A stretch of 60,502 bases of DNA from Geosiphon pyriformis. Its lineage: Eukaryota; Glomeromycota; Glomeromycetes; Archaeosporales; Geosiphonaceae. How positions within the stretch are numbered: the first letter of the stretch is position 1; each line of letters opens with the position of its first letter. The DNA lies in NCBI GenBank assembly GCA_016748015.1, contig JAAOMT010000529.1, positions 348,287-408,788 on the forward strand. Direction: 5' to 3'. Position numbers and translations under genes: made by a program. This document shows, one piece after another, positions 8,696-60,502 of the stretch. Below the pieces are notes generated by a model that saw only the letters and a list, made by a program, of their open reading frames with translations, was not told the DNA's origin and ran no database searches.

Positions 8696-8739
8696 TTTCA
8701 TAAGAACAAAGATTCTTCATGATCCGAAAGTTTACTGTT

Positions 8740-13700: not shown

Positions 13701-13877
13701 TTATCACGATTTAACTTTTATCTATAAATTTTAAATTTTTTTAATATAGTGAAATAATTTAATAAAATTTATTATTAATACGATTTATAAATTAATAAAG
13801 GTTATCGAAAATATATAACTTATGAAAAGATAATTCATTGAACCGAAAATTAAGATGATGGATCATGTTTAAATTTA
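10790..13877. other. Long AT-rich spacer with small kinase relics
   Basis: Positions 10790-10888 form the outer part of the inverted repeat with 1-110. A fragment at 10950-10976 resembles exon 1 of the kinases (...GATGAAATAATTAAAAA). A larger relic at 11785-11872 is listed separately. The rest is A/T-rich with no coding signal; a slightly richer patch at 12884-12936 is unexplained. Confidence 0.5.
11785..11872 (+). pseudogene. Kinase tail relic
   Basis: A short plus-strand stretch reads GAAATAGAACAGTTTAAGAA and onward, translating roughly as EIEQFKKSNKYVEE before breaking up. The same segment (EIEQFKESNKYVKE) is found in the minus-strand relic at 49925-50336 just before the HPGA-type tail. 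It is too short to be functional. Confidence 0.5.
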
Positions 13878-15197: not shown

Positions 15198-15632
15198 CGT
15201 GAATAAAAAGTGAATAGGTTATTATTCGAAAAAGTTTTTTAAAAGCTTTATTTGATAGTATGGTTAGATAGTAATTATTAAAGAGGGGAGTTCGTATTTA
15301 TGTTTTTCTCTAAGTAGTTATAATACGTAAATTACGCCAAACAAAGTCTCATCATTATGTTGCCTAAATGAGCTGTTCAATTTCTTGTAGAACAATAACG
15401 ATTTAGGCTTTGTGTGAAACATAAAAGATATTGTAGTACTAAAAATCATTGTGCACCAAAACAGAGTCAATAAATTGATTTGTTACACTATGCGAACATA
15501 GAAGAAACAACATAAGTAAGAACTCGCCTTTAGACAAATAACTTTCTAAACCTACTATCAAATAAACCTTTAAAGAAACCCTCTTTGAATGATAACCTAT
15601 TCCCTTTTTATCCTTTGGCCTTTATTCACACG
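15198..15632. promoter_or_regulatory. Shared divergent promoter of kinase copies D and E
   Basis: This 435-bp gap separates two oppositely oriented kinase copies. The box TAACCTATTC occurs on the minus strand at 15221-15212 and on the plus strand at 15593-15602, each followed by a T-rich stretch and the start codon. The plus half also carries TTTGTTACACTATGCGAACA (about 15479), which recurs at about 51598 upstream of copy F. Two inverted copies of one promoter meeting near 15.4 kb is the simplest reading. Confidence 0.5.
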
Positions 15633-23640: not shown

Positions 23641-27607
<3,967 letters not shown>

Positions 27608-29449: not shown

Positions 29450-29893
29450 TTTTAGGCGATTTTAAAATAATAAGTCGGTTGTGGTTTTAATTTTTTGAGT
29501 TAGAATCCTGCTTTGGTTATTATCATAACAGGTAATACCAATGATTAGCAGGTTTTTTCTTCCCCGATCTCTGTTGAAAGTGGACCAAATTGAATTATCA
29601 TCATTCGCCGACTTTTTCCGTATCACTGATCTCCTAAATTATTCACATGACAGTAGCACTCTAAAATACTATTTGGCGTTAACACTGATTGAAAAATGAA
29701 TTTTTAAAAACAGACAAAACAATAAACAAATGATAACCGATAACATTTCAAAAAGATCCGTCTAGTGTCTCATTTGTGAAATCGTTGTCGAAAGATTCCA
29801 CGTTTTGAAGATTAGATGCATCAGCCCTATATAAATACCTCAATTGATTTTTCTTCAAGGTTCAGCGAAATTATCATTCAATAGGCTATAAAC
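29450..29893. promoter_or_regulatory. Divergent promoter region, MATH-BTB / argininosuccinate lyase
   Basis: A 444-bp gap between two start codons facing away from each other. A TATATAAATA element at 29828-29837 lies 57-66 nt before the lyase ATG and suits its TATA box. I see no perfect TGACTC (general amino-acid control) site, which would have been expected in yeasts. Confidence 0.5.
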
Positions 29894-31636
<1,743 letters not shown>

Positions 31637-34741: not shown

Positions 34742-35782
34742 ATTTTTAAATCTAAACTCAAAAAAGAAAATTCAAAATTGGTGGTTGAACGTAATCAAAG
34801 AGCTAGTAATGTCAAAGAGGTAAAAGGAGAGTTGTTTTTCACCAGAAAATTGATGATTGCCTTTTCACTGTAGTTGGCTTTAGAGTTTGCTCAATTGAAA
34901 CGATTGCTGATGAATAAAGGTTATTTGAATGAAATAAATAAAAAATTAAGAGTTTGGGATAATAATATTAATGCAATAAAACTTCCGATCAGTAATAAAG
35001 ATAATACATGCACATTGAAAGGTTTACTAAAATGGGAAACTAAGTTGAGATTTACAAAAATTTCTGCATTGTACAATGTTCGACAAGTCAAACAGCAATA
35101 GGTTGACCCCTGAGTGCTGATAATTTGTCGCGCCCAATCCCGAACTTCTAAATTCTTAATATTTCAGACTGTAGAATTTCAAATTTCTGTTGCTTTTAAT
35201 ATTACATGGCGGATAAAACTTTGCTGGTCGATAATCATTGAGGATCACTATGGAGTAAAAAAATTTTCGAGCTCTATATTTTTCATTCCAAGGGGAAAAA
35301 ATAAAAATAAATTTACATCTTCTCTTTAGTAGGCCAGGCCGTTCAACGTTCTTTTAAACCATCAATTTCAACACTCGACTTTTCAAGGAATGAGAGATTT
35401 TGCATTTAAGTCCTTTGACCAATTCAAATTGAATTCATAATAAAATTAATATAACTCAAAAACAAATATTTTACGAGTATTTATTTAAGCAAAATGTACG
35501 AAATGAAAATCTATCTCCCAAATTAAATTTAAGTTACCAAAGTTTAATAAGGATGCTCATAAATTTTACTAAATAAGTAAAATTTGGCATTCTGAATTCT
35601 TAAGAAACTAATCTGTTTTTAAATTTACTATTGGAAGTAACAAAATTCAGCTTTAAAAGTAGGAATTTCATATTATTTAGAGGAAATTTTTTTAAAAGCT
35701 AGCTAAAAAAATTGTATTTTTGATAGCTTATTAAAATAAATCTTTCCGTTAATAGATCAAGGAAATGGTAAATTATTTACTT
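34742..35782. other. Intergenic region, no gene seen
   Basis: This carries the promoter of the AVO2-like gene and the 3' flank of the KH-like gene, both on the minus strand. Plus-strand frames here are short and lack family features. Confidence 0.4.
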
Positions 35783-38545
35783 TTACGATTGTCCTTTGTT
35801 ATATTTGCCTAAATCAAGACCAAGCTGACGATAATAATCATTATCTAACCATTCTTTTTGAAAATTTTGGTACTGCTTCAATATCTCTTTCGGAGTAAAT
35901 TTTTGATTTTTTGGTTTCTGAAGAGTGTTGGATAGGACATGATTTTGATTTGATTTGTTATTTTGCCGCGTGTTAAAATCTTTATTATTTTCTACCTTGC
36001 TTAAGATTGATTTGTTCGATGAAAGTTTATTATCGGAATAACAATCATCGGCATCTAATCCTTCTTGAAGGCTCAACTCTTCACAAAGAGCCATATGGGC
36101 TATTTCCAAAACTTCTTCGATAGAACTATCTTTCCTGCGCTTGGTGTCAGCAATAAATGAATTTTTAATTACAGTAGGAGCAGGAAGGAACGGGTCAGAG
36201 TGACAACCATCATTTGAATATTCGCTACTTTCCAAGGCTTCATCAATCAAGCCTTTCTGCGCAACTTCATTGCTCAGGAACTGGGTATCAGTTTTTTGCA
36301 TGTAGGATCCTTGCATTTGCGTTCTTTTCAAAATATTTTTACTGGATTGCTTGTTTTTTTGGTGAACTTCTTGTTTCAAAGTGAATGACGCCTTGTAACT
36401 TTTTGGATGGATTTGAAAAATATCCCACTGCCAATTCCGACTACAATTGTATTTTTTTGCACATGAAGCCTTCTTCATCTTGAGCTGTTTTTTATTATTT
36501 CCTCTTTTTACTCGAGGTTTAAATTTTCGAAAAACTTTTGACGCGAGTTTCCTGGCCGCAATATAGCTTTCCTCCGCTTTAAAAAAAGAGCCAGGCTTTG
36601 GCTCCAAAATAACAGCAGACTTTTTATTGCTGTCATCTGTTATCCATGAATAAACTTTTGTATACGTCTTTTGAGTAATGACATCAAAATTGATGCCAAC
36701 TGCTTTGATTAGTTTTTCAAAAGTCAAATACTGAGGCAGAGTGATCATAAGCTTGTTGCCGTTGTAGCCTTGGCGTTTTAGAAAATCGTCATAAACGTCA
36801 TATGGCATTAAAAATCCTATCATCGCGTGGATTTCTCTTTGAGCGGTGAGATGGCTATTGTGAGGAGATAGTTTGATTGGAGTAATTTCAATTGCTCGAT
36901 ATCGTAATAATTTGTCTTCAACAAAGATAATTTTGGTATCGGTTTTATCAGCAATTCTTCGAAGTTCAGAGTCATCAATTTGTTCTGAATTTATTTCTGT
37001 GGGAATTGGAATTTTCAAGTTAAATGAGAGATGTTTTTGAGATGGGATAAGCTTTTCCACCTGACGGGCCGCATTTTGAACCTGCTCCTGATCAATGTCT
37101 GGGTTGATGACGGACTTCGTCAAACTGCGTATGACTATAAAGTATTCTGTATAGTTTGATTTTTGAGTTTTTTTGAGAGTTGATTTAAGGCGAATTTTGG
37201 TTCCTGATGCCTTAGCTATTTCTTGAAGCCGTTTATAGCCGTGACTTTGCTTAAAGAAATTCACACATTTTTTGGGAATCGGTATGGTAATTTTGAATTT
37301 TTTGCTAGCTTTTTGAGAAAATTTTGACTCAACGTGTATTTCTTTGTTTTTCATTTTATTGGATTCCAAGAGGCATTCTTTATTTTCTTCAACTTCGTAA
37401 TGGGACGATTTGGTTGTCAATGTAAATTCTGTTTTTCCTAAGTCGTTTATATCATTCAGAGAATGTGTAGGTGAATTTGATAAAGAATTTTTTGATATCA
37501 AATTAGATGATCTTTGGATTGTATCTAAATTTTCATCACTAATTTTTATTGAATGGTTTTTCATTTTAATAGAATCGAACGGTGGTAAAAGAGAAAACTC
37601 TGAATTTGAAGTCAATCCAGATACTGAAGTGGATGAATTTTGAGCAATTTTTGCATCCAGGGTTAATTGTGATGGCGAGATTATTGTTTCCTGGTCAAGG
37701 TTATATTTTTGTACAAGGGATTTTTCCCCAGTTGTTTTTTCTCGAGGATTTTCCACAAAAAGCTCAATGTTGGGCGATCTAGTCAGAGATGGTTGGAATT
37801 GATAAGAGGTTCCAGGAGAAATACACTCATCTGATTCAGCATCGCCTACTTGTGAATCTTGACTATAATCAGGCGGGATGGTAAGGACCCTATCACTGTT
37901 TTGTGATGAACCTTCAACCGCCTCAAATTTTTGACTTTCAACATAATCAAACAATATTTGAATTTGGGAGACTGCGTCTGCAACTAAATCAACTGGAATA
38001 TCCTCATTCCTTCTTTTGCTTTCAATGACAACATATGGTCTATTTTCGTATCTCCGAATCCGTAATATGGTTTTGGTTAGTTGGCCAATCTCCTCCAAAC
38101 GATCTCGCGCATAATAGGAAAATTTGGCGAGACTAATAGAATCTGGGGGTTTTACATGATTTGTAGATCCACTCCAATTTCTAAATAAATTTTCAAGCTC
38201 CAATTTAGTTTTGATTATTTGCTGAGCAGTTAAAGGTTTCGATAAATTTTTGTGTGGTGATATGATGATTCTTGGCCAGTCATCAGTGGATGTAAAGTGT
38301 AGACACGTGCTTGTCCTATTCGCAATACGGCGAAGATTTTCCCACTTTTTCTCCTTTAAACAATGTGTCCCAACGTCAATTGGGATTTCCATAATTTCCT
38401 CATAGCCGATATTTTGCATTGGTGTCTTTGCAAAATAAAATTGCAAAGCGCAAATGAAATATTGGAAAGAGTACGTTGTGCGTGAGAATAAATTCCGTGT
38501 ACAGTTTTCAACGGGTGTGTGACCGTTCTTATGCATTGTTGACAT
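35783..38545 (-). CDS. Large intronless protein with KH-like repeats (paralogue 1)
   Basis: Up to 920 aa in one exon, unusual among the intron-rich neighbours. It aligns by eye with the 752-aa protein at 44373. Conserved units: EIPIDVGTHCLKE...ENLRRIANRT (KH-like, but the GxxG loop is replaced by KEKK), a second unit around YYARDRLEEIGQLTKT, then KITIPIPKK, LKIPIPTEI...ELRRIADKTDTKI and KLMITLPQYL units. A Ser-rich central linker and a basic stretch (KPRVKRGNNKKQLKMKK) follow. The last 40 residues (EWLDNDYYRQLGLDLGK) are shared almost exactly with paralogue 2. The first ~42 residues have no counterpart there; Met43 at 38419 is an alternative start. RNA binding is inferred from KH-like spacing. 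Family otherwise not recognised. Confidence 0.7.
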   Translation of the reverse strand: MSTMHKNGHTPVENCTRNLFSRTTYSFQYFICALQFYFAKTPMQNIGYEEIMEIPIDVGTHCLKEKKWENLRRIANRTSTCLHFTSTDDWPRIIISPHKNLSKPLTAQQIIKTKLELENLFRNWSGSTNHVKPPDSISLAKFSYYARDRLEEIGQLTKTILRIRRYENRPYVVIESKRRNEDIPVDLVADAVSQIQILFDYVESQKFEAVEGSSQNSDRVLTIPPDYSQDSQVGDAESDECISPGTSYQFQPSLTRSPNIELFVENPREKTTGEKSLVQKYNLDQETIISPSQLTLDAKIAQNSSTSVSGLTSNSEFSLLPPFDSIKMKNHSIKISDENLDTIQRSSNLISKNSLSNSPTHSLNDINDLGKTEFTLTTKSSHYEVEENKECLLESNKMKNKEIHVESKFSQKASKKFKITIPIPKKCVNFFKQSHGYKRLQEIAKASGTKIRLKSTLKKTQKSNYTEYFIVIRSLTKSVINPDIDQEQVQNAARQVEKLIPSQKHLSFNLKIPIPTEINSEQIDDSELRRIADKTDTKIIFVEDKLLRYRAIEITPIKLSPHNSHLTAQREIHAMIGFLMPYDVYDDFLKRQGYNGNKLMITLPQYLTFEKLIKAVGINFDVITQKTYTKVYSWITDDSNKKSAVILEPKPGSFFKAEESYIAARKLASKVFRKFKPRVKRGNNKKQLKMKKASCAKKYNCSRNWQWDIFQIHPKSYKASFTLKQEVHQKNKQSSKNILKRTQMQGSYMQKTDTQFLSNEVAQKGLIDEALESSEYSNDGCHSDPFLPAPTVIKNSFIADTKRRKDSSIEEVLEIAHMALCEELSLQEGLDADDCYSDNKLSSNKSILSKVENNKDFNTRQNNKSNQNHVLSNTLQKPKNQKFTPKEILKQYQNFQKEWLDNDYYRQLGLDLGKYNKGQS

Positions 38546-40461
38546 TTTATCGTGAATGGTTAGATTATCTGATCAGTTATTTCATGAATCACAGAAAATA
38601 TTGCTGATCAAAATAGCTCTCTGATTTAATTTTTAAAAGGAGTATTCTAAAACTCATTCACATTGCTAAAGTATCCCATAAATTTGAATATATACTTTGT
38701 TATTATTTTTTCCATTTCCGATTTTATAAAATGAAAACATTGAATTGACAGGAATGTAGGTTCAAGTAAACTATCAATTTTGAGGTAAAATAATGTGGAG
38801 AACTTATTCTTGCTGAAACGTTAAAGGATATATTAAACTATGAATAAATTGAAATCATAATAAAACTTAAATCACAAAACACTTTACCTACAAAAAGACG
38901 AACGAAATAATATGAGCTTTGAAATAATGCTCATTTATGAGTTCATCGATCTGAATTTGGAGCTTAATCAGTTTGTTAAAAATATCAAATAAACAAAAAT
39001 TTCAGAGGGCAATACTTTTTAGCATCTAAAGTTTTTTATGTATTCTTCGTTAGCTTTGAAAACATCTAACATAATACTAATAGATTGAACATTAATTTTA
39101 TCTTTTATAAATTTTCACTACTATTATTATTGCCTATAAATGATTATAAGTTTTTAATATGAGACAGTCCAAAATATATTTTGGTCATAATATATATTCG
39201 ACTTATATATTACACAAGATTGTATTTCAATATTTGTTGATACACTTTTTTATTTGTTTTTCATTAATTTACATAAATATTATATTATTTTTAATAAAAA
39301 CAGCAATAATAGTAAGTCTAAAAGTTCAAAAATAGCTTGGTTCTTATATAAGATTATATTTTTAATCCTTTTTTATATTATATAGAAATAACTAATTTTT
39401 GTTATATATAACTTATGGCTAAAATATTTTCTAATTAAACTATAAAAATATTTAAATTTTAAATAAAAGTTACTTATTTTCAAATTGTTAAAATATTAAT
39501 AAATAATTTATAATATTTTAATTACAAATACAATAAATAATTACTTAATTAAATATCAGTAAAATAAATTTTTTTAATTTTTTATGAATTAATTTTACAT
39601 AATATTTATTTTTAGTACTAATAAATAAATAGATTTTATAAAATTAACAAATAAACAATATATAAATATATATTAAATGTGAATTTATTTATTTAATTGA
39701 ATTTTTTTATTAAAAAATAGTTTTTTAATTATTATTTTTGCGTATTTATTTGTATTAATTTAATATATTCAAAATTTTATTAGTGGTTGAAACTTAAAAA
39801 TAAATTCAAGTAAATATTTTTAATAATAATATATTAAAATTCTTATATAAATTAATAAATTAAATTAAAATTTTTTTTTTATGCTTTATTTTTTTAAAGC
39901 TTTTAATTAATTAAAAGCTTTAATTATTAAATTATAAAGCATAATTTAAACATTTTTTAATAAATAAAATAATTATTAAATTGAGATTTTATTAATGTAA
40001 CATGTAAAATTCATATTTAAAAAAAATAAATATTTAATAAATAAGTTAAAATATATAAAAACAAAAAAACTTAATATATTATAACCATAAAATCTTAAAT
40101 CTTAATAATTCTATAAAATAAAAAACTGCTTTAGTTGCTTTTTGCCTATTATTGGCAAAATAAATTTACAAATATTTTTCAACACTAAAAACTTAATGCT
40201 AATAATTTCTCTACCTAATGTAAAAAATTATTTTTTAAAGCAGAAATTTTAAAAATTTTGGTCAATTCTGATAGGCTTAAAAAAAACTCTAATAAGGAAA
40301 TGAATGTCCGCATAAACGTACTAAAATCACATTACATAGTTCTTCCGGCATCATCTACGATCATTACCTAATGAGGAAAACATCCTTTGATAAGTTTGAT
40401 TACGGAGTTTATTATTTATAACCATTCTAGATTCCAAAATTAGCATTGTAGTACGACCACT
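38546..40461. other. Very AT-rich spacer with a perfect palindrome
   Basis: This separates the divergent KH-like and F-box genes. It is near-pure A/T between 39200 and 40100, with no gene. A 30-nt perfect palindrome lies at 39894-39923, and a short hairpin (TTTGCC...GGCAAA) at about 40142. Confidence 0.5.
39894..39923. repeat. 30-nt perfect palindrome
   Basis: The centre is AATT/AATT with arms TTAAAGCTTTTAATT and its exact complement. It can form a cruciform or stem, or be a chance product of A/T-rich DNA. The two embedded AAGCTT sites make it the most symmetric element I saw in the window. Confidence 0.7.
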
Positions 40462-41670
40462 ATGGCTTCTAATCTTCCCCAGCTATGTCTTGACGAAATC
40501 TTTGTAAATTTGGCTGCTGATACGGTGTCCTTATTTTCATGTCTTAAAGTAAATCGGCACTGGTGTCGAGCAGCTGTCAAAACTTTGTGGCGAGATCCTT
40601 TATCATTAAAGTCACGCAGGAAGCTTTCCTATCCACTTGCACTTTGCCTCGATGATGAAGATAAGCGCCAACAATCAGAAAAATTGCTCTATAAGCAACC
40701 CTTGTTTCGCTATTTAGCATTCATCAAAACTTTAGATCTGCCCTTATTGGTTAGTGCTACCATTGGAGCAGATTTCGGTGATTTGAATTTTAATAAAGCC
40801 GAAGCCAATTTACCTTTGGTTAAAGCCATACTTCACAAAAAGGTCACAGGAGATGACCATGGCGTTCTCACCACACTCAATCTGGATTTCATGGTTTCTA
40901 CAGTGAAAGAACAACGATTCTTGAATCGTCGGTTTTCTATTAAAGCATCAAATTTTACTGCAGACGATAGTTATATTTTGTTCAACTTACCTAACGCTTG
41001 GATATCACTCTCAAATCTACGAAGCTTGACGGTCTGTGACAAGAATTCATTCCAGATTCTCTGTTTAGCTTCTCAAATAAGTCCAAATATTTCAGAACTA
41101 TATATTAGTCTATATGTTGAAAATGAAATTTTGAATAATAAGGAGTTATGTGGAATTTCATCATTACTTCCTCTTCTTCAATCTTGGCCTCAACTCTCTA
41201 TTTTATCTTTCGCTGAGGGCGTGAATCGCCCTTGGGATCATACTATGATGATAGCGGATGATTTTTTGATTGGTCTTGCAAAATTTCTCCCACCAAATAC
41301 CTTTGAACACTTAATACTTGACGCTAAATTCAGCTTTACTGCATCAGCTTTGGCAAAATTTTATGAGACAATTGAAGCGAAAATTAGAAGAATCTCGCTT
41401 CAAAAAGCACATCGATTACAGGACGAACATCTTGAAATCTTCTGCATCCACGCGGAAAAGGGTTTGATTGAGCTTGATATCTCATCTTCAAAATGTATAA
41501 GTGAAGAAGCTTTGTCCGAAGCGTTAATTTTTATACCAGTTATTCATCTCAATTTAGAAGAACCAACTACAGATTATGATAGCGATCCTAATTACGATAC
41601 TGAATGGCAAGATCAGTATAATGACTTTGAAGAAACTTATGGTCCGCTAGATTTTCTAGACTTACTTTAG
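40462..41670 (+). CDS. F-box protein with LRR-like C-terminus
   Basis: An intronless 402-aa protein. Residues about 4-45 form an F-box (LPQLCLDEIFVNLAADTVSL, SCLKVNRHWCRAAVKTLWRDP), the pattern typical of Glomeromycotina F-box families. The rest has irregular leucine-rich repeats (SNLRSLTVCD, NISELYISL, GLIELDIS) and an acidic tail (DYDSDPNYDTEW). The F-box would bind Skp1 in an SCF ubiquitin ligase, with the LRR part as substrate receptor. Start: first ATG, followed by ASNLPQLC, as usual for the family. It lies between the two KH-like paralogues, on the plus strand. Confidence 0.8.
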   Translation: MASNLPQLCLDEIFVNLAADTVSLFSCLKVNRHWCRAAVKTLWRDPLSLKSRRKLSYPLALCLDDEDKRQQSEKLLYKQPLFRYLAFIKTLDLPLLVSATIGADFGDLNFNKAEANLPLVKAILHKKVTGDDHGVLTTLNLDFMVSTVKEQRFLNRRFSIKASNFTADDSYILFNLPNAWISLSNLRSLTVCDKNSFQILCLASQISPNISELYISLYVENEILNNKELCGISSLLPLLQSWPQLSILSFAEGVNRPWDHTMMIADDFLIGLAKFLPPNTFEHLILDAKFSFTASALAKFYETIEAKIRRISLQKAHRLQDEHLEIFCIHAEKGLIELDISSSKCISEEALSEALIFIPVIHLNLEEPTTDYDSDPNYDTEWQDQYNDFEETYGPLDFLDLL

Positions 41671-42164
41671 AGTCATTCCTCTTCTCTATCAGATGGATCG
41701 TGCGCTTCGTTAAGTCTAAAAATTTCAATCCTCGCTTAAGGGTAGTCTAAAAAAGGTTATTCGGTTTTAAATGAAAGATCTTCATTTAACGTTAGACTTT
41801 AATTATAAATATGCCTATGGCAATGCAATGCTCTTTCGGAACAGGTAGGAGGTGTAACAATATTTCTGACGAGTTATGTATTTATCAAATATTAAATAAG
41901 TGAAACTGAGAATGATTCTTAAATTATAAAGTAACTTTTATGCAAAAGATGAGGAAATTCAATTTTTCAATAATTCTCTGCATTCAAAATAATGAACGTC
42001 CAATTTGGCTGCAATTTAATTCAAAATACTGATATCTTTTGCATCATGTAAATCTGCTAATCTGAGATGCGTGATACTGTAGATCTCTGATCCCAAATTA
42101 AATCAGCAGGGAGAAATTTCTTTGAAACTTAACCCTAAAATTTTCAGAGTGCAACTGAACGACA
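41671..42164. other. Intergenic, no gene seen
   Basis: A 494-bp gap between two plus-strand genes. No repeat or clear core promoter motif was found. Confidence 0.4.
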
Positions 42165-43563
42165 ATGAGAACACCACCGAGGAGAGAATACCAATATCAT
42201 CGAATTATCGGGGAATGGTATGAACGGAACGCTAATCGTAAAGGATGGCTTAATAAAAATGGCAGTATATTTCCAATATCGGTGCAAAGCTTGTGTGATT
42301 ATATCCAACTCAAATCGGCTCGTTGTGAAATTTCAACAATTCTGAGTTATGTGAATGCACTGGGAAAATATCAAGCAGATATGTACCATGTTTACTCAAA
42401 TTGGGATAATATTCGATATCATCCTGAAGTTCAGAATACTCTGACACGTTGTGCCAGAGAAAAAAGGCATTTACAAAAGCAACAGGACGAAAGCCATTGT
42501 AGACCGAAGAATGTATCAAATTTGGCAGAATCGTCTACTTCTGCAAGTGAACAGGCTTCAGGAATTCCAGGTGAAAATTTCAAGATGCCCTTACTAGATT
42601 GTAATATGAAGGGTATAGAGATAAACGATCAAATATCTCATCATGAACGTCGAGCAAAGAACAATTATGCCGATATTTTTGAATTGAATGGGCGGGAATC
42701 TGAACGCAGAGGTTAATATTCTGAAATATGAAACAATTTCAAATATCTGATTTTTATCAAAACTTGATATTTTCTAGGAAAAGGGGATGCCTTACTAAAG
42801 AGAAACCCAAACTTGAATAAAAATCAAAAAAATCCTTTCGCTTATAGTCCAGAGAATGAGGTCTCTTTATACCAAAGCCGAATGCTCATTAAACCTCCAT
42901 TCAGTAAGGGAAACACTGATGCAATTGGTGATTATTCAACACTGAAATATTTCATAAAGTCTCAAAGCGAACTAATAGATTTACTCTACCAATCATACAA
43001 AGATGAAAATTCCATTCCGACTTTAACAACCAATCCAAGTATTCCCGTTGTAAATCTTATTGAGGACAATAATCCCGTCCATCCAAAATCTTTAATTCCA
43101 ATTAAGATTGAAGTCCTTCCTAGTGCTACCCCGCTACTGATGAAATATGCTAATGGGAATGAAGTTGGTATCAAAATCACAAAGAAAATTTTCCAAACAC
43201 ATATCTCTATATTAATTTCATAACTTTCAACTATAGTTTGAACTATTGCGCTTCGATGTTTTGACGCTTACTTATTTGACAGTTCTCAAATCCAAGTATA
43301 CGGGTAACTGCCCACACCATCCTGCTGGTTGTTATCCTTTAGACCAGGATCGCCATATGATTTTGACCCCACGAATGTTTAAAGATTGGGCTATGTTGAT
43401 GGTAAGTAAACTCCTCCCTATGGCATGTATATAAAATTTTTGGTCATGTTTTTTACTTTAGGCTGCTGATGATGCCGACAACCGAGTAACTAGAGAAAGC
43501 CTTCCACAATTTCAAGAAATGCCAGAATTTTGGGTGGACCATGCGGTTTATATTCAAGAATAA
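42165..43563 (+). CDS. Protein with tyrosine-recombinase-like N-terminal (SAM-like) domain
   Basis: Predicted 399 aa in four exons: 42165-42711, 42778-43163, 43237-43401, 43462-43563, all phases closing. Residues about 20-105 (GWLNKNGSIFPISVQSLCDY, STILSYVNALGKYQ, WDNIRYHPEVQNTLTRC) resemble the core-binding domain that precedes the catalytic half of phage-type and Crypton tyrosine recombinases. No R-H-R-Y catalytic half follows. The middle is a Ser/Asn-rich linker. The C-terminus has a compact Cys/His-containing block (CPHHPAGCYPLDQDRHMIL, then FKDWAMLM) and ends FWVDHAVYIQE. It is probably a domesticated, catalytically inactive DNA-binding protein. Assignment rests on pattern memory only. 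Confidence 0.6.
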
Positions 43564-44372
43564 ACCACAATTTGGCCATTCCAATATTTCAACTTTAAAG
43601 CTTTATTCTCTATAGAATTTTTTCAGTATTAATCTGGTTTTAGAGCTCCAATATGTCAAATTTTGAGGGTTTGCTACTCATTTTATATTCCTTCGGCTTC
43701 AACAAAATCGATAGAAATCTAATGTAGGATCGCCTAAAATGAAGTAATGATTAAAAATGTCTATAGAAATTTTTTTGAAAAAGAAAACATTAAATAATTA
43801 GCAGCTTGGTAATGCGAACTTTATTATTAAGCAGCCTTTTCCACGAAACCAGAAAACGTCAATCAGGAAGTTTTTTTAAAAAATGCATTTCTCTTGTGAG
43901 GAAAATCAGTGGGCTTCGGAAAATATTTTGGAAGATGTACATATATCTGTTTTAGATATTCAGTATCGTTGACCGATTCAGGAGAAAGTTATTGCTCTCA
44001 TTAACTTTTTGGGAGGTTTGTCGGGGACGGTTTACTCAAAGGAGTTCTTTGGGTTTCAAAGATTAAAAATCTATCTCTCCATTTGAATCAGCGATGTTTA
44101 TCACGATTATCTGATATCTGTGAGCTTTCGAAGTCATATTTTGGTTAGTTAATTAGATTGATCACGATACGCCCAACACATTATCTTTCTTAATAGGCTA
44201 CCAATTTAAAATTAATTTTAAGGGGCCCAAATGTATTCAATCTTTTTACTGCGGAACAGAATTTAAAATCTGGAGCTGTATCTTAGTTTACAAATTTTCC
44301 CACGTTCAAAAATATCTTTTGGTTCCCAAGGAGAAACGTTAAGATTCAAAGCGGAATTGACAAAACCCGATA
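43564..44372. other. Intergenic, no gene seen
   Basis: This is the 5' region of KH-like paralogue 2. Positions 43960-44120 are GC-richer but broken in all frames. Confidence 0.4.
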
Positions 44373-46631
44373 ATGAGTGCAGCAGAAATTTTTGAGATAC
44401 CGATAAGCGTTCCAATTGGTCTCTTGATGGGAAGACAGGGTGAAAATCTACGTCTGATACGTGAAAAGACTAATACATGGATCCAATTTTCACGTAAAAA
44501 CAACTGGCCAATCCTTACTTTAAATCCTAAGAAAGGATCAAAAGCATTATTGACACCGGAACAGATCCAAGATACAAAGGATGAAGTTGAGAAATTGTTC
44601 AAGGATTTGAGCCGTAATACCAGCTCAGTTAAGGCACCAAAATCTATTGACTACGCAAAATTGAACTTTTATGGCAAGGCTGAATTGAATGATATTGCAC
44701 AAAAAACTGAAACTGTCCTTTCCATACGTCAATACCAAAATAATTCTTACGTTCTAATCGATAAAAAGAAAACCAGTCATGAATTATCGAGAACGACCAA
44801 GAGAAAAGTAACTCAAGAAATTAAGAAAATATTTAACCATATCGCTCAACAACCAGCGTTAAGCGACGAAAAAGTTCCACAATCAATTAAATTGCCTATA
44901 ATTGAAATTAAGAGTGACTCGAGCACATATTCTGACACTAGCACTTTTGTTGGGTCTAATTCATTTGGTGAGATATCACACGGGAAGCTTCAATTTGGCC
45001 TTTCTTCTAAGATTTCTATTGAAGAAAGATCTTTTTTAAATGAAGGAGACTATAAAGAACAAGTTTCTTTCAATGCAATGAAAATGAACCACCTAGAAGG
45101 AATTGCGGAAGACTATATCGGATCTGGTAAAGAATTTAAAGTTATTAGCAACATGGAATCGACATATTCAGCGGATCCAATTGGTATTTCCAAAAACATC
45201 GAAGAAGCTACAATTTCTTCCCAAGAGCAGATTTCATCTATCATAGATATGACGAAAGATAATGATATTTCGCAACCCTTGGAGAAAACTTCTGAAATAA
45301 TTTTTCCAATTCCCGTTCCATTTGACCAAATATTCCAAGGAGGTCAACGGCCATATGAACTTCGTCTTATTGGAAAAGTGACCGATACCAGAATTCGTGT
45401 CATCACAAAAGCTTCGCGAAATTTGGAATCTAATGATTCTATGACACAAATGATTGTGATTGATAACCTTCCAGATGCCATTTCTGATATTCCACTTAAC
45501 GAAAGACTTCATATGTCCGCAAAGAAAGTTAGGGAATATCTTTTAAATCAAAGGGAACTCTTAGTTACAATAAAGATTCCTGTTCCGAAAGAATTACCAT
45601 ATAATGGCATTAATCCTATAGAGTTGGAAAAAATTGCCCAAGATTCTGGAACTTATATAAAATTTAGTGAATTGGAAGGTCGCAAAATTCGTGGAATTGA
45701 AATTCGTCCTAGTTGTGCACCCCATGAGAAAAATTTGGAGTATGCCCAAGAGAGAATTCATGAAATGCTTCGCAAAGTCTTGTTCATTGAAGATTGTGAC
45801 AAAGATTATAGTTTAAACGATGCGACAATTATTATTGGCATACCTCGAGCTTCCGATTTAATGCTGCTCTTGAAGAGTAGTGGAATACATTTAGATATGG
45901 TCACTAGAGCAAGTGAAACCATGGTCTATGCGTGGAAAATCGACCCATTTAAATTATCTTGGATAAAACTTGTCTCCAAAAAGCGATCAGGGTCAATAAA
46001 AAAAGATTTCAATACAGCAAGGCGAGTCATTGAAAATCTATTTGGTGATAAAGGTATTCAATTTCAATGGCAAGAGTCTACCTCTTTGAAACCCTTAGTT
46101 TCGCGCCCAGTCTGGAAAATTGAGGATAATGAGACAAAAGTTGAAGCAAATATTAAGGAAGCAAGATTTTTTCGAGAGGAGAGCGATATTGATCCTTGTA
46201 AATATAATGAAGAACCCTTGTTACCTTCTAATAACCCAAGAACGTATCAGCAGGACCTTATTCATTCGGACAGCGAAAAGCAATCAGCTTCTTCACGTAT
46301 TTCTAACACTAAAGAACCTGTCATTCAAAAAAAAATACGCAGAGTTTCAAAAGGCCAATCTAGCAGACACCAGCACCTGGATATGCAGACAAAGAAAGAA
46401 ATAGAGACTGATCACTCAGACTCGGTTATTAGACAGCCACTGCTTTTAGACAAGGAAATATCTATAAGCACAGATGAAATCGATGTGAACAAAAGGTTTG
46501 CCGGAAAACCTATTAGATACTCTGCGAAAGAAATTGCGAAAAGGTGGTCTCAATTTCGGAAAGGTTGGCTGGATAACGATTTTTATCGACAGCTAGGATT
46601 GGATTTAGGAAAAACGAGTATCCAAAAGTAA
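44373..46631 (+). CDS. Large intronless protein with KH-like repeats (paralogue 2)
   Basis: 752 aa in one exon. Unit 1 (about 6-70) is a recognisable type I KH motif: IPISVPIGLLMGRQGENLRL with GRQG as the GxxG loop, then REKTNTWIQF. Further KH-like units follow at about 90-155 (KAELNDIAQKTETVLSI), 308-390 (IIFPIPVPFDQI), 392-467 (VTIKIPVPKELP, ELEKIAQDSGTYIKF) and 482-560 (ATIIIGIPRASDLMLLLKSS). A polar linker (160-305) and a basic low-complexity stretch (about 650-665) separate them. The end, GWLDNDFYRQLGLDLGK, is almost the same as in the 35783-38545 protein. Multi-KH layout suggests an RNA-binding or ribonucleoprotein role, vigilin-like in plan only. Start: first Met, directly before the shared EIPI block. 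Confidence 0.75.
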   Translation: MSAAEIFEIPISVPIGLLMGRQGENLRLIREKTNTWIQFSRKNNWPILTLNPKKGSKALLTPEQIQDTKDEVEKLFKDLSRNTSSVKAPKSIDYAKLNFYGKAELNDIAQKTETVLSIRQYQNNSYVLIDKKKTSHELSRTTKRKVTQEIKKIFNHIAQQPALSDEKVPQSIKLPIIEIKSDSSTYSDTSTFVGSNSFGEISHGKLQFGLSSKISIEERSFLNEGDYKEQVSFNAMKMNHLEGIAEDYIGSGKEFKVISNMESTYSADPIGISKNIEEATISSQEQISSIIDMTKDNDISQPLEKTSEIIFPIPVPFDQIFQGGQRPYELRLIGKVTDTRIRVITKASRNLESNDSMTQMIVIDNLPDAISDIPLNERLHMSAKKVREYLLNQRELLVTIKIPVPKELPYNGINPIELEKIAQDSGTYIKFSELEGRKIRGIEIRPSCAPHEKNLEYAQERIHEMLRKVLFIEDCDKDYSLNDATIIIGIPRASDLMLLLKSSGIHLDMVTRASETMVYAWKIDPFKLSWIKLVSKKRSGSIKKDFNTARRVIENLFGDKGIQFQWQESTSLKPLVSRPVWKIEDNETKVEANIKEARFFREESDIDPCKYNEEPLLPSNNPRTYQQDLIHSDSEKQSASSRISNTKEPVIQKKIRRVSKGQSSRHQHLDMQTKKEIETDHSDSVIRQPLLLDKEISISTDEIDVNKRFAGKPIRYSAKEIAKRWSQFRKGWLDNDFYRQLGLDLGKTSIQK

Positions 46632-48369
46632 CGCATTGTGGTACAATTAAAGAATTTTGTTTCTGTCCAAAGGGGCAATTTTAAATGTCTAAATTATCTT
46701 TATTTTAAAAATTTTGTCAATAATTTAAGTTTTTTTTCTTGAAGCTGAAATTAATAATATACCAAATATTAATTTTCAATTGGAGTATTAGTTTCAGTAT
46801 TTAACTTGTAAATTTGAATCTAAATCAATATATTTTAATTATAAAGCTTAGTTACCGCTGAATAAAGAAAATGTATATTAGAGTTGGATATATAAAAAAT
46901 AGGTAATGAGAAAATTTTTATGAAAAAATCGAGTTTTAAAATAAATTACGCTGAAACAAATTGCAGCGGCAATCGAAATATATTTTTAAAAATATAAATT
47001 CAAGACGGGAACAAAAATTTCTTTCATGAAATTTTATTATTGTTAATAAATTTATATCCATTACTCATTATAGAGATAATCAATTTGAGGTATTTAAATA
47101 GCAAAATTAGATTTTTCGATCCAAAACTATTAAATATTGGTGATTGTTATTTCTTGCTGCCAAAAACTGCTGGACAAAGAATCTGAACAGATTATTAAAT
47201 ATGCATATATTCTAAATAAATTCGAAAACTATTAAATATTCTTTCTTTGTATATCGAGTAATCTGGGTAAGAAGTCCAATTTAAAGAATTAAAAAGATAT
47301 TGTGTCTCAATGAACTTTGCAAATTTCACAAATCCATCAATATGGTATTAAAATGAAGAGTTCAGAAATCCAAAATTATTCTTTTGATCAGAATATAAAT
47401 TTAACTTTTAGATTCGGCTCACAAGTAAATATGATCTGCATTCTTAAGCGTTTAAAGTTGGCCAATTGCAATCAGTAAAAGCATATTTTGATTTCAATCG
47501 TTTTTCAAAAAATTGACTATAAATGAGTTTATTCCAGTAAAAAATTTTGTGGATTATTTAAAATAGAGTCCTTACATTTTTGTGAGAATAAAGGAAAACT
47601 TCTTTTTTATGACTGCTCTATAAAGAACTGTTTATCATTCCTATCAAAATATTCTAGGCGAAAAATACTTAACTTAAATAAACTTGGATTTTTGACAATT
47701 CATTATATTCAGCCAAAAATAAACTAATATAAATAGACTATTTTACTTTTCTAATTAAAATAAATATTTTCCACATATTTTAAATGATTGAAAATTTTTT
47801 ATTGGAATTTTGGTTTGAGTAAAAGTTTATTTTGTTTGCTCGAAAAATTTTGAAAATGGATCTATTATTGAAACATTATTTAAGAGCACATTCCAAACTT
47901 TATATTTTGAAATCATCAATTAACAAAATTTAATTTTTTTTGAAATTTTAATTCTGTAAGTAAAGAAACATTTTTACTTAATGAAATAAGTTCGTGCTAA
48001 GGAAAGGGTTTCGTTTTAAATACAACTTCGCAGATATTAAACATATTCTGATGAGATTATTTCTTTCAAAACAAAAAAACTTTTTATTTATATTTAGTAA
48101 GAATGTTCTTTTAAACCCAGCCATTAAAAAAAAGGATTATTAAAAACCAAATATATTTCATTTCAAAATGGAATTAATGATCAAAGTGAATTATTTTGTA
48201 AACTCTTTAATTAAAATCTTATAATCAAATTTTTGTTTTGTAAAAGTAATGCTTTCAGAAATTTTTCCTTCTTTTGACTGCCCAATTCTTAATTACAATT
48301 GTTGAAAAATTACTATCTTTGCTTTTCAATTTCAGACTAATAAAATCAAGAAAATTTTCATTTGAGAAT
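46632..48369. other. AT-rich intergenic region, no gene seen
   Basis: This is the 3' flank of KH-like paralogue 2, grading into transposon debris. There are no supported coding, RNA or repeat features. Confidence 0.4.
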
Positions 48370-51369: not shown

Positions 51370-51760
51370 ATGAGTTCAAATTTAGTTTAGAGAGAAACTG
51401 AAGAGCTAATAAAAACAAAGAAATTAATGTTTTGGTGGATCATCCCACAAAGCCTAAATCGTTTTTATCATTATTATTGTTGCTGTTCTATAAATAAATT
51501 GGAGAAACGTGTTTGGCGTTTTTATTTATTATAGCTACTTAAAATTTATTCATATTTAGTATGATTTGTAGCTGATGAATAAGGTTGAGAAATAGATTTG
51601 TTACACTATGCGAACATAGAAGAAACAACATAAATAAGAACTCGCCTTTAGACAAATAACGTTCTAAACGTACTATCAAATAAACGTTTAAAGAAATCCT
51701 CTTTGAATAATAACTTATTCACTTTTTATCCTTCTTTATCCTTTGTTCTTTATCCACATC
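51370..51760 (+). promoter_or_regulatory. Conserved 5' flank of kinase copy F
   Basis: It shares long stretches with the flank of copy E, including TTTGTTACACTATGCGAACA (about 51598) and ACTCGCCTTTAGACAAATAA (about 51640). It also shares the TTG/TTA-rich stretch at about 51465 with copy B. The box TAACTTATTC lies at 51711-51720, 50 nt before the ATG. Confidence 0.45.
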
Positions 51761-53284
51761 ATGGAAAATCAAGAAATTAATAGATATCGTCCAGATGTTC
51801 ATGATTGCAACGAATGTAAACGGTGTCAAGGATGTATTAAAAATAATCGTAATAATAATAATTGTAGAGCATGCTGGTTTATATTTTTTGAAAAACATTA
51901 TAAAGACTTTTCAAGCGGTAATGACGAAGTTGATGAAATGATTAAGAATCCAATCTACTTTCCACCTAAGAAGAATAATTATGAGGGTAGTTTGAATTAC
52001 TATGAATGGATTCCATGGGAGCGTTTGTTGAATATCAATGAAATTGCTAGAGGAGGGCTCGGTATAATTTATAAAGCAACCATAATTGATGGATTAATTG
52101 ATGAGCGTAGTATAAAACATCATGGTGAGATGGAATATAAAAGAGGAAAATTTAATGAAGATGAAGAAAGGATTGATGAAGTAGCAATAAAAATTATCCC
52201 AACGAACAGTTTAGAAGTGTTTAAAGAGGTAAACAAACTATTATTATTTATATCTATATAAAATTAATTCATATTTATCTATTATTTATTCATTTATTTA
52301 CTGTATATTATCTATTTATTTTTTTACAGTTAAATATTCAAAGAGCTATGTTTATTAAGAATGGGTATTTTGGTTATGTCTCTTCAATATTGGGGATTAC
52401 GCAAAACGCTGAAACACTCGAGTATGGAATTGTGATGGAGTTTGCCGAACATGGTGACATCCGAAAATATTTATCAAAAAACTTTCATTCTATAGATTCT
52501 ATAAGTTTCACAGAAAAAAGAACGATCGCGTTTCAAATAGCTTTAGGACTTGAAGAAATTCATGACTCTGGTATGGTTCATCGTAACCTACACTCGGGCA
52601 ACATCCTACAATATAAATCTATGACATCTAACACACGAATTTGCGACCTCCGATTATGTCAACCTACAAACAATGAAGCAACAACAACAAAGGAAAAAAA
52701 GATATATGGAGTGATTCCATACATTCCACCAGAAGTTTTAAGAGGAGAAAAGTTTACTGTGGCTGGTGATATTTATAGTTTTGCCATGTTATTATGGGAA
52801 TTAGCAACAGGAAAGCCTCCTTTTTATGATCGTTCTCATGACCTTTTTCTCGTGATGGATATTCTTTATAATGGTATTAGACCTAAGATTACCTCTCCAC
52901 TTATTCCCCCTTCTTATGCTGAAATAATTGTAAAGTGTTGGGATGTTAATCCTGAAAATCGTCCTACTGCCAGAGAAGTTTATGAGATGTTGAATGAGCT
53001 TACGTTTTCGGAGTCCGAGTTTTGGGATTCAGATAATTACGTAAAAGAAATGGTAAAGAACGACTCGACAACAAATCATTCAACAACAACGATAACTCAC
53101 ATTCATCCAGGAGCAGTTTATACAAGTCGTCTTTTTACTTTGCAAATAATTGAAGAGACAAAAGGTTAGTTTATCTATTTCGTATTGATTAATTTATTGA
53201 TTTAATTATTTTACATTATATTAACAATTTAATTTATATCAATTTATAAAAGAATTTGTTTATATGCCTGAATATAAGAGTTAA
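51761..53284 (+). CDS. Zinc-ribbon-like/TKL pseudokinase (copy F), intact frame
   Basis: Predicted 444 aa: exons 51761-52228, 52330-53164 and 53253-53284. The Cys-rich module (HDCNECKRCQGC, NCRAC), VAIK Lys, PPEVLRGEKFT and CWDVNPENRP are present. The catalytic loop is HRNLHSGN (Asp replaced by Asn) and the DFG-equivalent is DLRL (Gly replaced by Arg), so phosphotransfer should be lost or very weak. The glycine loop has Leu for Phe (GGLGII). The donor that ends exon 3 in copies A, B, C and E (GAA|AGTAAG type) reads GAATATAAG here, so translation runs on to YKS and stop at 53282. An open frame with no lesion suggests constraint on a non-catalytic role or a recent origin. Confidence 0.75.
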
Positions 53285-55300: not shown

Positions 55301-56650
55301 CTAGTTTTTATTTTTAACTTCACGATTACAACCACCATTTTCGGTCAGTTCATTCAATGCACCATAAGTTTCTGAATTGAAACCCTGCAAATATTTTTGA
55401 CTCAAGAACTGAGAAAGCAATTTAACTTTTCTTTTCAAAACTTCAATCTCATTCATTTGAACTGCAGGCGACGGAGTCGATTCCAATCTCTCATTTGAAT
55501 GACTCATCGTATCAACTCCCAACATCAAATTATTGTTTAATTCCGATAACGGAGAATGAGATGGTGATCGATCAATTTTGAAACATGGAACATCAACATT
55601 TTGTTGGGCCGAAGTTGGAGAAAGATCATGTAAAATGTCTGCGCGTTTAGACTTTGATTTTTGGCGGTTTTTCTTGGCGTCAGGGGAGCTTTGGAGAAGA
55701 TATTGTTGGATTATGCCCCAAGACTTAAATTTTCCATTACCAAAAAGAATTAGCCATATCGCAGAAATAAAGGTCAACAAGCCACCAACAGATGCAATAA
55801 AGTCAACCCAATTATAAGCTCTCTTTTCTGTATATCTTGTGACCTTGAAAATAATATGAAATTTTATTTAATCATTAATTGAGGTGTGAGATAAAGATCT
55901 ATCATAGAAACTTACCAAAAAATCGATTGGAAAATAAATAATCTCACATATTAGAAATCCTGAAATATCCAGAGACTTTTCATGCTGAAACTTTTCACTC
56001 TCTTTGTACCAGTGACTATTTCCTTCTACATCAATCCTCTCAATCGATTTGAATGTGAGCTTATGCAGCTCACCGTCACTTAATTTGAATGTCTTCCCGT
56101 CTTGATAATTGTCAATTCCTACATATGTAGTATAAAATAAACCAATTGAATCTTTCAAAGGAGTTTGTCGAATTAGATTACGCCAAAATCTGATTCTAAT
56201 CGATTCTATTCCTTCTCGTTTATAAATTAATTTCGAGTCATTTGATTGCTGAAATAATAAACATGGAACTGGATATTCTTCACGAGGTTCGAATTTAACT
56301 CTTGTAGAATTTGATGCTGTCCCATTCATAAAAATATAATCGGAGGCTATATTATTATCCGCAATTTGATATTCTATTGTCACTTTTTCTATGGCCGTTT
56401 CAAATTTTTGCGAGTCCTTTCGATCAAATACGCAAATGTATGCGTCTGGAACTGGAATACCATTGATATATTTATTATTAAGTAGTGAAATAGATATTAA
56501 TGGCTCTTGGTTGTTAAATAATTTTTTAAAGTTTGGGGTTGAGACGATGATAATGATTGCACAAAGAGTGGTGGAAACTAGAAGACGAATTCCTAGTTCT
56601 GGATTTCGTTTTAAGTAACCTATTTTTCTAAAAAGCTTTGAAAAAAACAT
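55301..56650 (-). CDS. Two-TM membrane protein, channel-like topology (paralogue 1)
   Basis: Predicted 425 aa in two exons: 56650-55916 and 55843-55301, phase 0. A short cytosolic start is followed by TM1 (LLVSTTLCAIIIIVSTP), then a ~200-residue middle domain with NGIPVPDAYICVF, N-glycosylation-type NGT/NST sites and the block IERIDVEGNSHWYKES. TM2 (FIASVGGLLTFISAIWLILF) follows, then FKSWGIIQQYLL, a Ser-rich cytosolic tail and a short coiled coil (EIEVLKRKVKLLSQFLSQKY). Two TMs around a large outer domain, with an ASVGGLL-type entry to TM2, recall DEG/ENaC or P2X channels, but no diagnostic Cys pattern is seen. Start: ATG at 56650; the upstream TTG is ignored. It is head-to-head with its paralogue. 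Confidence 0.7.
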
Positions 56651-57419
56651 AATTTTCAAAGATAAAATAAAAAATATTTTCTAGCACTAAATGGAATGAA
56701 TATAAATTTGGAAATGATATTGAAAAAAAAGACTAATATGTCTGAAAATAGATGAATATAAGGAAAATTAAATTCTTGCTTAGTTTTGTAGATAGGAAAA
56801 AAACTTGAACCGATGAGTAAAAAAAATGCTTTACTAAAATTTTTTTATCAACATAGAGATGCTAATATTTCTCATAGAGGATTACAATGGCATGATTATT
56901 TAGTTTATTATTTTTTGTAAGTTTTAAACTTGGAAATGGGCTTTACTATAGATAAATTATGGATAATCAAAAGTTCTTTCGGGATTTTGTAAACCAACTA
57001 AATAAACCAAACGAGGATAAAATTAAATAAAATCTAAAGAAAATAATCATTATAAATATTTTTACTTTGAGGTAGCATTAAAAATTTTAAAATAAACCAT
57101 TTTTTGGTGATAATTGTTCCAGGAAATATCTTAAACTACTTATCATTAATAACATTCATTTTCCATAAATAAAAATTTAGGTAAACATTCATAAACAGAT
57201 TCAATCGATACACCGAGTAGAAAGTATTGGTGGAATGATTGATCTTTGGAATTTATTTGCTTGTTTTTTTTAAAAATTTGACCAAAAAAACATTTCTATC
57301 AAATTTTCCTTTTAGTTATAATTTTTTTTTTGAATTTTTAATCTCTTGAATATAAAACCCAATTAGTCAAATTCCATCTGTTAAATTTTCATTTGTCCTC
57401 TCACAATTTTAAATTTAAA
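56651..57419. promoter_or_regulatory. Divergent promoter region of the two-TM pair
   Basis: A 769-bp A/T-rich gap between two start codons facing away from each other. No clear shared motif or TATA element could be singled out by eye. Confidence 0.35.
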
Positions 57420-58839
57420 ATGAGTGTTCTTCATTCGCTTCCAAAGTTAAACGCTGAACTAATAATTCGCCTCATATTTGGTCTCAGTATTTTCTCAATA
57501 ATCGTCGCCATGACAATTCCTACCTTTTTCAGAGTTTTCATATATCAAGACCCCTTAATTTCAATCTCTATAAACCACAATACATCAGAAAGTGGTATTC
57601 CAGTGCCAAATGCCTTGCTCTGTCTAAATATGATAATATTCCCTTATTTGAAAAATATAACTGTTTTGAGTGGACAAGATATTCTTTTTGGTTCTATTGA
57701 TCTAGAGGATAATGGAAGGTCATCAAATGAGACAAGATTGGTCTTACGAAAAATAGGTAGAAAGTTTAAATGTTTAGCTTTTAAACCTGAGAGTTCTCTG
57801 AAATACTATCAAGAAGCTGTGGATTTTGTTCAAATAATATTTTATTACAGAAATGAGTACGAAAGTAAAATAAATTATTTTCAGGAAATATGGAATGAAA
57901 TGTGGAAGAATGAACAGTTTGGATTTGTATGGGTTACATATGATTCAGTTAATGGCACTTATCAAGAGAGAGAATCAATTAAAATCAAACCAAATCAACT
58001 TACTGCTATCACCTTAAATCCGACCGAAAGAATAGATGTGAACGGAAATAGTCATTGGTACAAAAATGTTCCCGATAATTTTAAAGAAGACCCAATCCCA
58101 GGATACCCTTTTAATTTAGTTGAAGTTTGGATTTATCCGATTAATTCTTTGGTGAGTTTTCAAATTTAGATTGATGAAAATTCAGAAAAATTGACTATCC
58201 AATTTTTTAATGACTTTTTTATACATATAATTATAGGTAACACAATACACGGAAAAAAACGAGGTCACTTGGATTGATATTTTTACTGATGTAGGTGGTT
58301 TACTGGCGTATGCTTCCGGAGTATGGATAATATTATTCGGTCGTGGACGTTTTAAATCATGGGGTTATATACAACAATATATTCTCAAAACCGCACCAAA
58401 TGCTAATATACGAGGGCAAAAACAAATCAAAGGTTCACCAATATTACCAATTGAAGACTTTAAAAAGAATCTCTATTCACCAAGCGAAAATTCTCAGAGT
58501 GATACTTTAAGTAGCGTCACCACGTTTTTGTCTACCTCTAACTTTGGTGAACCTTTCCAATGCAACTTTGATAGTATCAATGAGAAGTCTAGCATTAAAG
58601 GTGAAAGTTCATACTCAGAAAAAAATCTCCAGTCTTGCAATCGCTTACCAAAAATAGTTTTAGATTATGAAAATAGTCATGAACGAATGTTTACAGATGA
58701 TTTACAGGTATTGCAAAGGAAAGTGAACTTGATTGAAAAAATGTTATGTCAAGAGTATTTAGAAGGATTTGGTTTAGAAACTTTTGATAAGATGAATCAG
58801 ACTTTTAATAGTGAAAAATTACCTGAAGTTAAGTTTTAA
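57420..58839 (+). CDS. Two-TM membrane protein, channel-like topology (paralogue 2)
   Basis: Predicted 444 aa in two exons: 57420-58151 and 58237-58839, the same intron position and phase as paralogue 1 (donor after Phe/Ser-Leu). TM1 lies at IIRLIFGLSIFSIIVAMTIP. The outer domain begins SGIPVPNALLCL and contains TERIDVNGNSHWYKN. TM2 is TDVGGLLAYASGVWIILF, then GRGRFKSWGYIQQYIL. A Ser-rich tail ends in a coiled coil (DDLQVLQRKVNLIEKMLCQE). The N-terminal ATG at 57420 (MSVLHSLPKL) is preferred to a TTG frame. No signal peptide apart from TM1. Function is not recognised; ion channel or receptor is inference from topology. Confidence 0.7.
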
Positions 58840-59865: not shown

Positions 59866-60502
59866 TAAAAATTATAAAAACGAGCAGTCCAGAAGTGTTT
59901 AAAGACGTAAACAAACTAGTAATATTAATATTTATATTTAATTCATATTTACTTATTATTTATATATTTACTGTATATTATCTATTTATTTCTATACACT
60001 GTGTTGATAGTTAAATATTCAAAGTGGTATGTTTATTAATAAGGGTGGGTATAAAAGTCGTTATATCTCTCCAATATTGGAGATTACGCGAAACGCTGAA
60101 ACACTCGAGTATGGAATTGTGATGGATTTTGCCAAATATGGTGACATGCGAAAATATTTAGCAAAAAATCTTCATTCTACGAGTTGGCCTGATAAATTAG
60201 AGATCGCGCAAGATATAGCTTTTGGACTTGATTCGATTCATTCTTCTGGTATGGTTCATCGTGATCTACACTCGGGCAACATCCTACAATATGTGAAAGA
60301 TGAAGTGACTATTGGAGACCTCGGGTTATGTCAACCTACAAACACAAACAATGAAGCAACAACAACAGAGGAGAAAAAGATCTATGGAGTGATTCCATAC
60401 ATTCCACCAGAAGTTTTAAGAGGAGAAAAGTTTACAACAGCTGGTGATATTTATAGTTTCTCCATGTTATTATGGGAATTAGCAACAGGAAAGCCTCCTT
60501 TT
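59866..60502 (+). pseudogene. TKL-type kinase, exon 1 truncated, runs off the window (copy G)
   Basis: Only the last ~14 codons of exon 1 remain (about 59866-59906, ...SPEVFKD), with donor gtaaac. Exon 2 opens at 60011 after gatag and stays open for 164 codons to the window end. It carries EYGIVMDFAKYGDMRKYL, HRDLHSGNILQ, GDLGLC, PPEVLRGEKFT and LLWELATGKPPF, so the C-lobe is intact and catalytic-looking. The Cys-rich module, glycine loop and VAIK Lys are gone, replaced by unrelated DNA with a transposase-like fossil. A functional kinase is not expected unless an upstream exon has been recruited. The 3' end is outside the window. Confidence 0.65.

Follow-up and report, generated by a model that had tools for sequence, protein, structure and literature searches.

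Vigilin carries more than ten KH units, and SLS1 is a fungal mitochondrial KH protein with divergent KH units. The GxxG loop of the KH domain contacts the RNA backbone, and single model KH domains no longer bind once it is changed to GDDG (PMC6486635, PMC9491823). In Bicc1, three KH domains coexist with two KH-like units devoid of GxxG; KH2 contributes, through its GxxG, a major RNA-binding determinant, and all three KH domains are needed in Xenopus (PMC9491823). The related GLD-3 is described as having a first KH domain that is structurally independent of the rigid platform formed by the others (PMC8249388), and a KH region and a C-terminal part that each bind a protein partner (PMC2679207). 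In the KHNYN and N4BP1 type of extended di-KH module, a KH domain lacking GxxG lies beside one that has it, and such modules can bind protein. KH2 of KHNYN keeps GAQG, yet RNA binding by the di-KH module was not detected (PMC11997328), so that a GxxG loop is not sufficient for RNA binding. In one assay, a change to GDDG in KH2 of IMP1 reduced the affinity by no more than about a factor of two (PMC11997328).

Against this background, we have analyzed a pair of large multi-KH genes, here called A and B, in a stretch of 60,502 nucleotides from Geosiphon pyriformis (the window). A and B are probably RNA-regulating scaffold proteins, uncharacterised but not of a fundamentally new kind. The features of the locus, with their positions in the window, are as follows.

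35783..38545, minus strand: KH protein A, a 920-aa frame that becomes homologous to B close to the ATG at 38419
35786..35911, minus strand: conserved C-terminal segment of A
36518..37318, minus strand: units 3-5 of A, 29% identical to units 3-5 of B
37907..38158, minus strand: unit 2 of A, KH-like only by alignment to B, 31% identical to B unit 2
38159..38410, minus strand: unit 1 of A, 38% identical to B unit 1, no Pfam match alone; loop position EKKW at 38342-38353
40462..41670, plus strand: F-box-like gene of 402 aa from a dispersed family, not thought to be part of the KH pair
42165..43223, plus strand: small gene, frames 42165-42716 and 42768-43223 taken as one gene, not thought to be part of the KH pair
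44373..46631, plus strand: KH protein B, 752 aa
44373..44624, plus strand: unit 1 of B, KH type I with a KH_1 match; loop GRQG at 44430-44441
44625..44876, plus strand: unit 2 of B, KH-like by predicted secondary structure only
45279..45554, plus strand: unit 3 of B, predicted KH fold with GQRP at the loop position; none of 200 shuffles scores as well
45555..45788, plus strand: unit 4 of B, predicted KH fold with GINP at the loop position; none of 200 shuffles scores as well
45816..46070, plus strand: unit 5 of B, KH-like by predicted secondary structure only, pLDDT under 50
46509..46628, plus strand: conserved C-terminal segment of B, a predicted helix followed by WLDNDFYRQLGLDLGK

Both large intronless frames of the original prediction are present and uninterrupted. 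The frame of A spans 929 codons from stop to stop, compared with a longest stop-free frame of 110 amino acids on average and 171 at most in 200 Markov-1 simulations of the region 35000-47500. Its first ATG adds 42 residues (38420-38545) ahead of the ATG at which homology to B begins, and the true start of A is therefore uncertain. Elsewhere in the window, the genes at 24290-26178 and 29885-31636, which we take to encode a dipeptidyl-peptidase and an argininosuccinate lyase, are split into several frames, whereas the KH genes are intronless. A and B lie head to head in divergent orientation and, as had been described, flank two other genes, one of which occupies two open frames. Starting one codon before the second candidate start of A, B can be aligned with A throughout at an overall identity of 29%; on the strength of this alignment, A and B are collinear paralogues. 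They would descend from a single multi-KH protein through an old inverted duplication, the ancestor being composed of a module of units 1-2, a linker, a module of units 3-5 and a short conserved end.

The similarity between A and B is found in three stretches, corresponding to units 1-2 (E 5e-26), units 3-5 (E 1e-19) and the end (E 1e-6). Amino-acid identity amounts to 38, 31, 24, 36 and 25% for units 1 to 5, to 20 and 22% in the two linkers and to 47% over residues 700-752 of B; in plain identity, units 3 and 5 (24-25%) are hardly above the linkers (20-22%). Among the 42 four-fold sites with the same amino acid in both genes, the same base occurs at 9, with 11.8 expected by composition. The synonymous sites are saturated, and dN/dS is consequently not usable. 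Since both frames are intact and still match each other after saturation, both have been kept by selection; judged from this sequence comparison, A and B are old genes under long-term constraint by purifying selection. Being made without an outgroup, the comparison gives no direction of change.

The five KH-like units claimed for both proteins differ in how well their KH nature is supported. Pfam KH_1 matches unit 1 of B with an E-value of 6.5e-7 and 29.5 bits, the cut-off being 21.5. Whole A gives no Pfam match at E ≤1 and B units 3-5 give no KH_1 match at E ≤10; among the pieces of A and B that were searched (A units 3-5 aside), the one row beside KH_1 is a chance match to IL13 (E 0.1). As a second line of evidence, A+B alignments were compared with a KH profile of 22 KH stretches of the same genome, taken from 31 matches by leaving out B itself, five short or weak matches on contigs C10 and C307 and three on further contigs; the 22 stretches are not independent, the genes on C238 and C344 being nearly identical. 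Units 1, 3 and 4 score 28.1, 26.0 and 19.1 against this profile, values that none of 200 column shuffles reached. Unit 2 scores 11.4 (9 of 200 shuffles as high) and unit 5 scores 10.7 (23 of 200), compared with 11.7 for linker 1 (16 of 200), 7.0 for linker 2 (175 of 200) and 6.1 for the tail region (176 of 200). The corresponding hhalign probabilities for units 1 to 5 are 75, 0.5, 58, 12 and 0.3%. The claim of five units is thus upheld for units 1, 3 and 4, which the Pfam match of B unit 1 together with the profile and structure matches supports as KH-related. It does not hold for units 2 and 5 at this level: in the profile comparison they are no better than linker, and their KH nature is a matter of predicted topology, taken from low-confidence models.

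These AlphaFold models were built from two-row alignments for full B and for B units 3-5, A never being the folded sequence. The model of full B is poor (pLDDT 38, pTM 0.23) and that of units 3-5 is of low confidence as well (pLDDT 54, pTM 0.38). Structure prediction of each unit, which had been suggested as a check, thus covers B as a whole and its units 3-5 together; strands and helices are predicted to follow a KH-like order at five places in B. All six elements of the strand-helix-helix-strand-strand-helix order are present in units 1, 3 and 4, some of them just 2-4 residues long in these low-confidence models, but the first strand is absent from unit 2 and one of the helices from unit 5. 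Two Foldseek runs against the PDB returned four matches each at E ≤0.001, among 1344 and 1089 at E ≤10. All four per run are tandem KH structures, with FBP and IMP3 in both runs and IMP1 also in the second; their TM-scores are low and the rmsd over two domains is large, and non-KH structures such as aspartokinase are interspersed with the KH matches or follow them. With VIA-align, unit 4 resembles hnRNP K KH3 (1zzk; Z 9.0, 2.8 Å over 74 residues), units 3-4 resemble FMRP KH1-KH2 (2qnd_B; Z 9.0, 5.2 Å over 128) and unit 4 of the full B model resembles IGF2BP3 KH1-2 (7yey_A; Z 9.1, 2.2 Å over 70). The VIA-align matches mostly cover units 3-4, and many have a Z around 8, a level at which chance arrangements are frequent; the top match of the run that gave hnRNP K and FMRP, 7vpx_D (Z 9.1), comes without a chain name and is not counted as KH. 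A and B would share the KH type I fold with the IMP, FBP, hnRNP K and FMRP proteins, which are the closest to units 3-4 in structure, but apart from KH itself the sequences showed no relation to them. Indeed, among PDB sequences A has no match up to E 10 and the A+B profile none up to E 1, and B has two weak KH matches, to MEX3C (E 0.0099) and KSRP (E 0.26).

Concerning the loops, the original prediction assigned GRQG to unit 1 of B and KEKK to the corresponding place in A. The GRQG is confirmed and A has no such loop, but the aligned residues of A are EKKW, one position on from KEKK. At the loop positions of units 1 to 4, B reads GRQG, GKAE, GQRP and GINP, and A reads EKKW, ARDR, SHGY and QIDD (units 2-4 aligned by eye); no loop can be clearly made out in unit 5 of either protein. 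By eye, B has the first-place glycine in four units and both glycines in unit 1 only, and A has neither. The GRQG of B unit 1 is hence the one GxxG of the pair that occupies a KH loop position. Two other G..G motifs lie off the loop position by eye: GDKG at residue 558 of B, past the final helix of unit 5, and GYNG at residue 593 of the 920 of A, immediately ahead of the strand that opens unit 5.

We propose, with a probability of about one half, that A and B form a diverged pair of KH scaffold proteins, in which B acts on RNA via unit 1, A is its partner or competitor and the common tail recruits an effector. B would contact single-stranded RNA through the GRQG of unit 1, and its units without a loop would act as a spacer and as a scaffold for binding proteins. 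A, in which the loop positions of units 1-4 have no GxxG, would be the diverged partner or competitor, and the tail could recruit an effector or dock a partner common to both proteins. The role of such a pair would lie in regulating mRNA translation, decay or localisation. By analogy with Bicc1 and GLD-3, unit 1 of B would sit on RNA, units 3-5 would provide a platform and the tail would be responsible for docking.

The same loop pattern also bears on the idea that neither protein binds RNA any longer and both serve as protein-protein scaffolds, with the GRQG of B as a remnant. Both loop glycines are found, by eye, in one of four alignable units of B and in none of four of A, and KHNYN offers a case of a retained GxxG without detectable RNA binding (PMC11997328). 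KHNYN and N4BP1 are a functional parallel only; A and B have no NYN nuclease match. However, the unit 1 loop of B has retained a basic residue and belongs to a domain that scores above the Pfam cut-off. In addition, units 1-2 of B carry a net charge of +10, and we regard the loss of RNA binding by both proteins as somewhat unlikely.

The distribution of charge differs between the two proteins. Units 1 and 2 have net charges of +3 and +7 in B against +2 and -1 in A, whereas unit 3 is at +1 in B and +14 in A, and linker 2 at -1 in B and +13 in A; the tail segment has +5 in B and +2 in A. Given the charge of its unit 3 and linker 2, A need not be inert towards RNA, and it may touch RNA. Both proteins could then bind RNA, B via units 1-2 and A via its basic unit 3 and linker 2, and act as two regulators with different targets. 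The opposite charge patterns of units 1-2 and of unit 3 with linker 2 point in this direction, but charge alone is weak evidence and unit 3 of A has SHGY at the loop position, which leaves this arrangement unlikely in our judgement. A division of roles, as originally suggested, is thus permitted by a diverged pair of which one member lacks GxxG, but its wording as an RNA-binding and a non-binding partner is too firm in view of KHNYN and of the charge of A.

For the diverged scaffold pair that we favor, the common tail is the element through which A and B would meet the same partner. The near-identical end that had been noted is indeed there, reading WLDND[FY]YRQLGLDLGK and giving 59% identity over 37 residues (E 1.4e-9, with the last 54 residues of B as query), and the tail is the part most alike between the two proteins. 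Compared with PDB sequences, it has no convincing relative, the search returning just two chance-level photosystem matches (E 1.6). In the genome, a degenerate DNA pattern of the tail occurs at two places, A and B. Searches of the 124.7-Mb genome with B (E ≤0.01), with A (E ≤10) and with the last 54 residues of B (E ≤10) likewise match only A and B. No third copy was found when the best candidates were scored exon by exon, in searches that are not exhaustive and that an intron-rich or very diverged copy could escape. An alignment-based scan of viral contigs gave 73 pattern matches and no relative of the pair, and the corrected tail pattern had no match in viral contigs or in bacterial and archaeal genome contigs. 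A narrow open-access literature search (Rhizophagus, arbuscular mycorrhizal and Mucoromycota, each with KH domain) returned no paper whose title or opening abstract lines describe such a KH pair, which is weak evidence. A further, doubtful possibility is that the pair represents an undescribed KH family, perhaps of one fungal lineage, in which RNA-binding and loop-dead members compete via the tail for an effector and their ratio sets mRNA fate. If the split of roles is real, the pair would be a compact natural experiment in which a KH protein loses its RNA-contact loop and keeps its partner-binding end, and it would offer a short docking segment.

The original prediction would have fallen with a clear assignment to a known vigilin-type or other KH family with the same tail; the features of vigilin, Bicaudal-C and SLS1 that were looked for are not found in A and B. 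Like vigilin/Scp160, A and B are multi-KH proteins, but they have five units at most. A separate gene with 12 KH_1 matches on one strand of contig C307, 11 of them over the cut-off, looks like the vigilin of this genome. Three further genes, on C238, C344 and C368, have three KH matches each and are presumably of the PCBP/Hek2 type; three KH domains, each with GxxG, are not what A and B have. The three-KH genes at C238:732548-733537 and C344:735601-736624 are nearly identical and may be a recent duplicate or a second haplotype. Bicaudal-C and GLD-3 resemble the pair in having up to five KH or KH-like units, in the scarcity of GxxG loops and in a C-terminal part that lies beyond the KH units, but A and B have a long linker between units 1-2 and units 3-5. 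No SAM domain was matched by Pfam in A or B at E ≤1, and in place of the GxxG in three KH domains of Bicaudal-C there is one in B and none in A. As to SLS1, neither protein has a match to the SLS1 family at E ≤1, the start of B is by eye unlike a mitochondrial presequence, and PF14611 (KH_SLS1_1) is not matched anywhere in the genome at E ≤1 (the 14 control genomes being prokaryotes, none of them fungal).

That A and B are nevertheless a fast-diverged member of one of these families (vigilin, Bicaudal-C/GLD-3, SLS1 or PCBP/Hek2 type) finds some backing in 3n89, which we take to be GLD-3 and which ranks 39 among the best 50 VIA-align matches (Z 7.5, 62 residues on unit 4), one among many KH rows. 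The up to five KH or KH-like units, as in Bicc1, would also fit. Against this, the Pfam searches for SAM and SLS1 were negative in the pair, PF14611 is missing from the genome at the same threshold, and the vigilin-like and three three-KH genes sit elsewhere in it. We consider such a family membership highly improbable.

The two genes between A and B give no sign of extending the diverged scaffold pair to a larger unit. The F-box-like gene matches Pfam F-box-like with an E-value of 2.3e-4 and 21.3 bits, under the curated 24.3, and has 32 other matches in the genome (E ≤1e-5), some of which are two pieces of one gene. Neither frame of the small gene has a Pfam match; its first 100 residues resemble a recombinase-type N-terminal domain, and its first frame has 8 other matches in the genome (E ≤0.01). 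Within C126:293725-300125, the best relative of the F-box-like gene has a relative of the small gene at a distance of about 5 kb, the two being oriented to each other as their counterparts in the window are. No relative of A or B is found there among five frames of at least 90 aa (9.5 kb), and C126 has no KH_1 match. This suggests that the F-box-like and the small gene are an older, possibly duplicated block of their own, rather than part of a KH cassette. The possibility that they form one system with the KH pair was set aside, as both belong to dispersed families. The proposal of a new system is accordingly not sustained: the pair consists of paralogous multi-KH proteins, and its intervening genes show no sign of a cassette.

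Elsewhere in the window, several similar kinase-like genes are seen by eye at 417-17055, 51707-53169 and 60011-60502, most of them in two open frames. They have a cysteine-rich start, and the end HPGAVYTSRL is common to four; they look like a local expansion. A low G+C content and an abundance of kinase and F-box genes are reminiscent of arbuscular mycorrhizal fungi. Related membrane-protein-like genes at 55301-56680 (minus strand) and 57342-58839 (plus strand) lie head to head and, with one pair of frames aligned, represent another inverted duplicate pair in the window.
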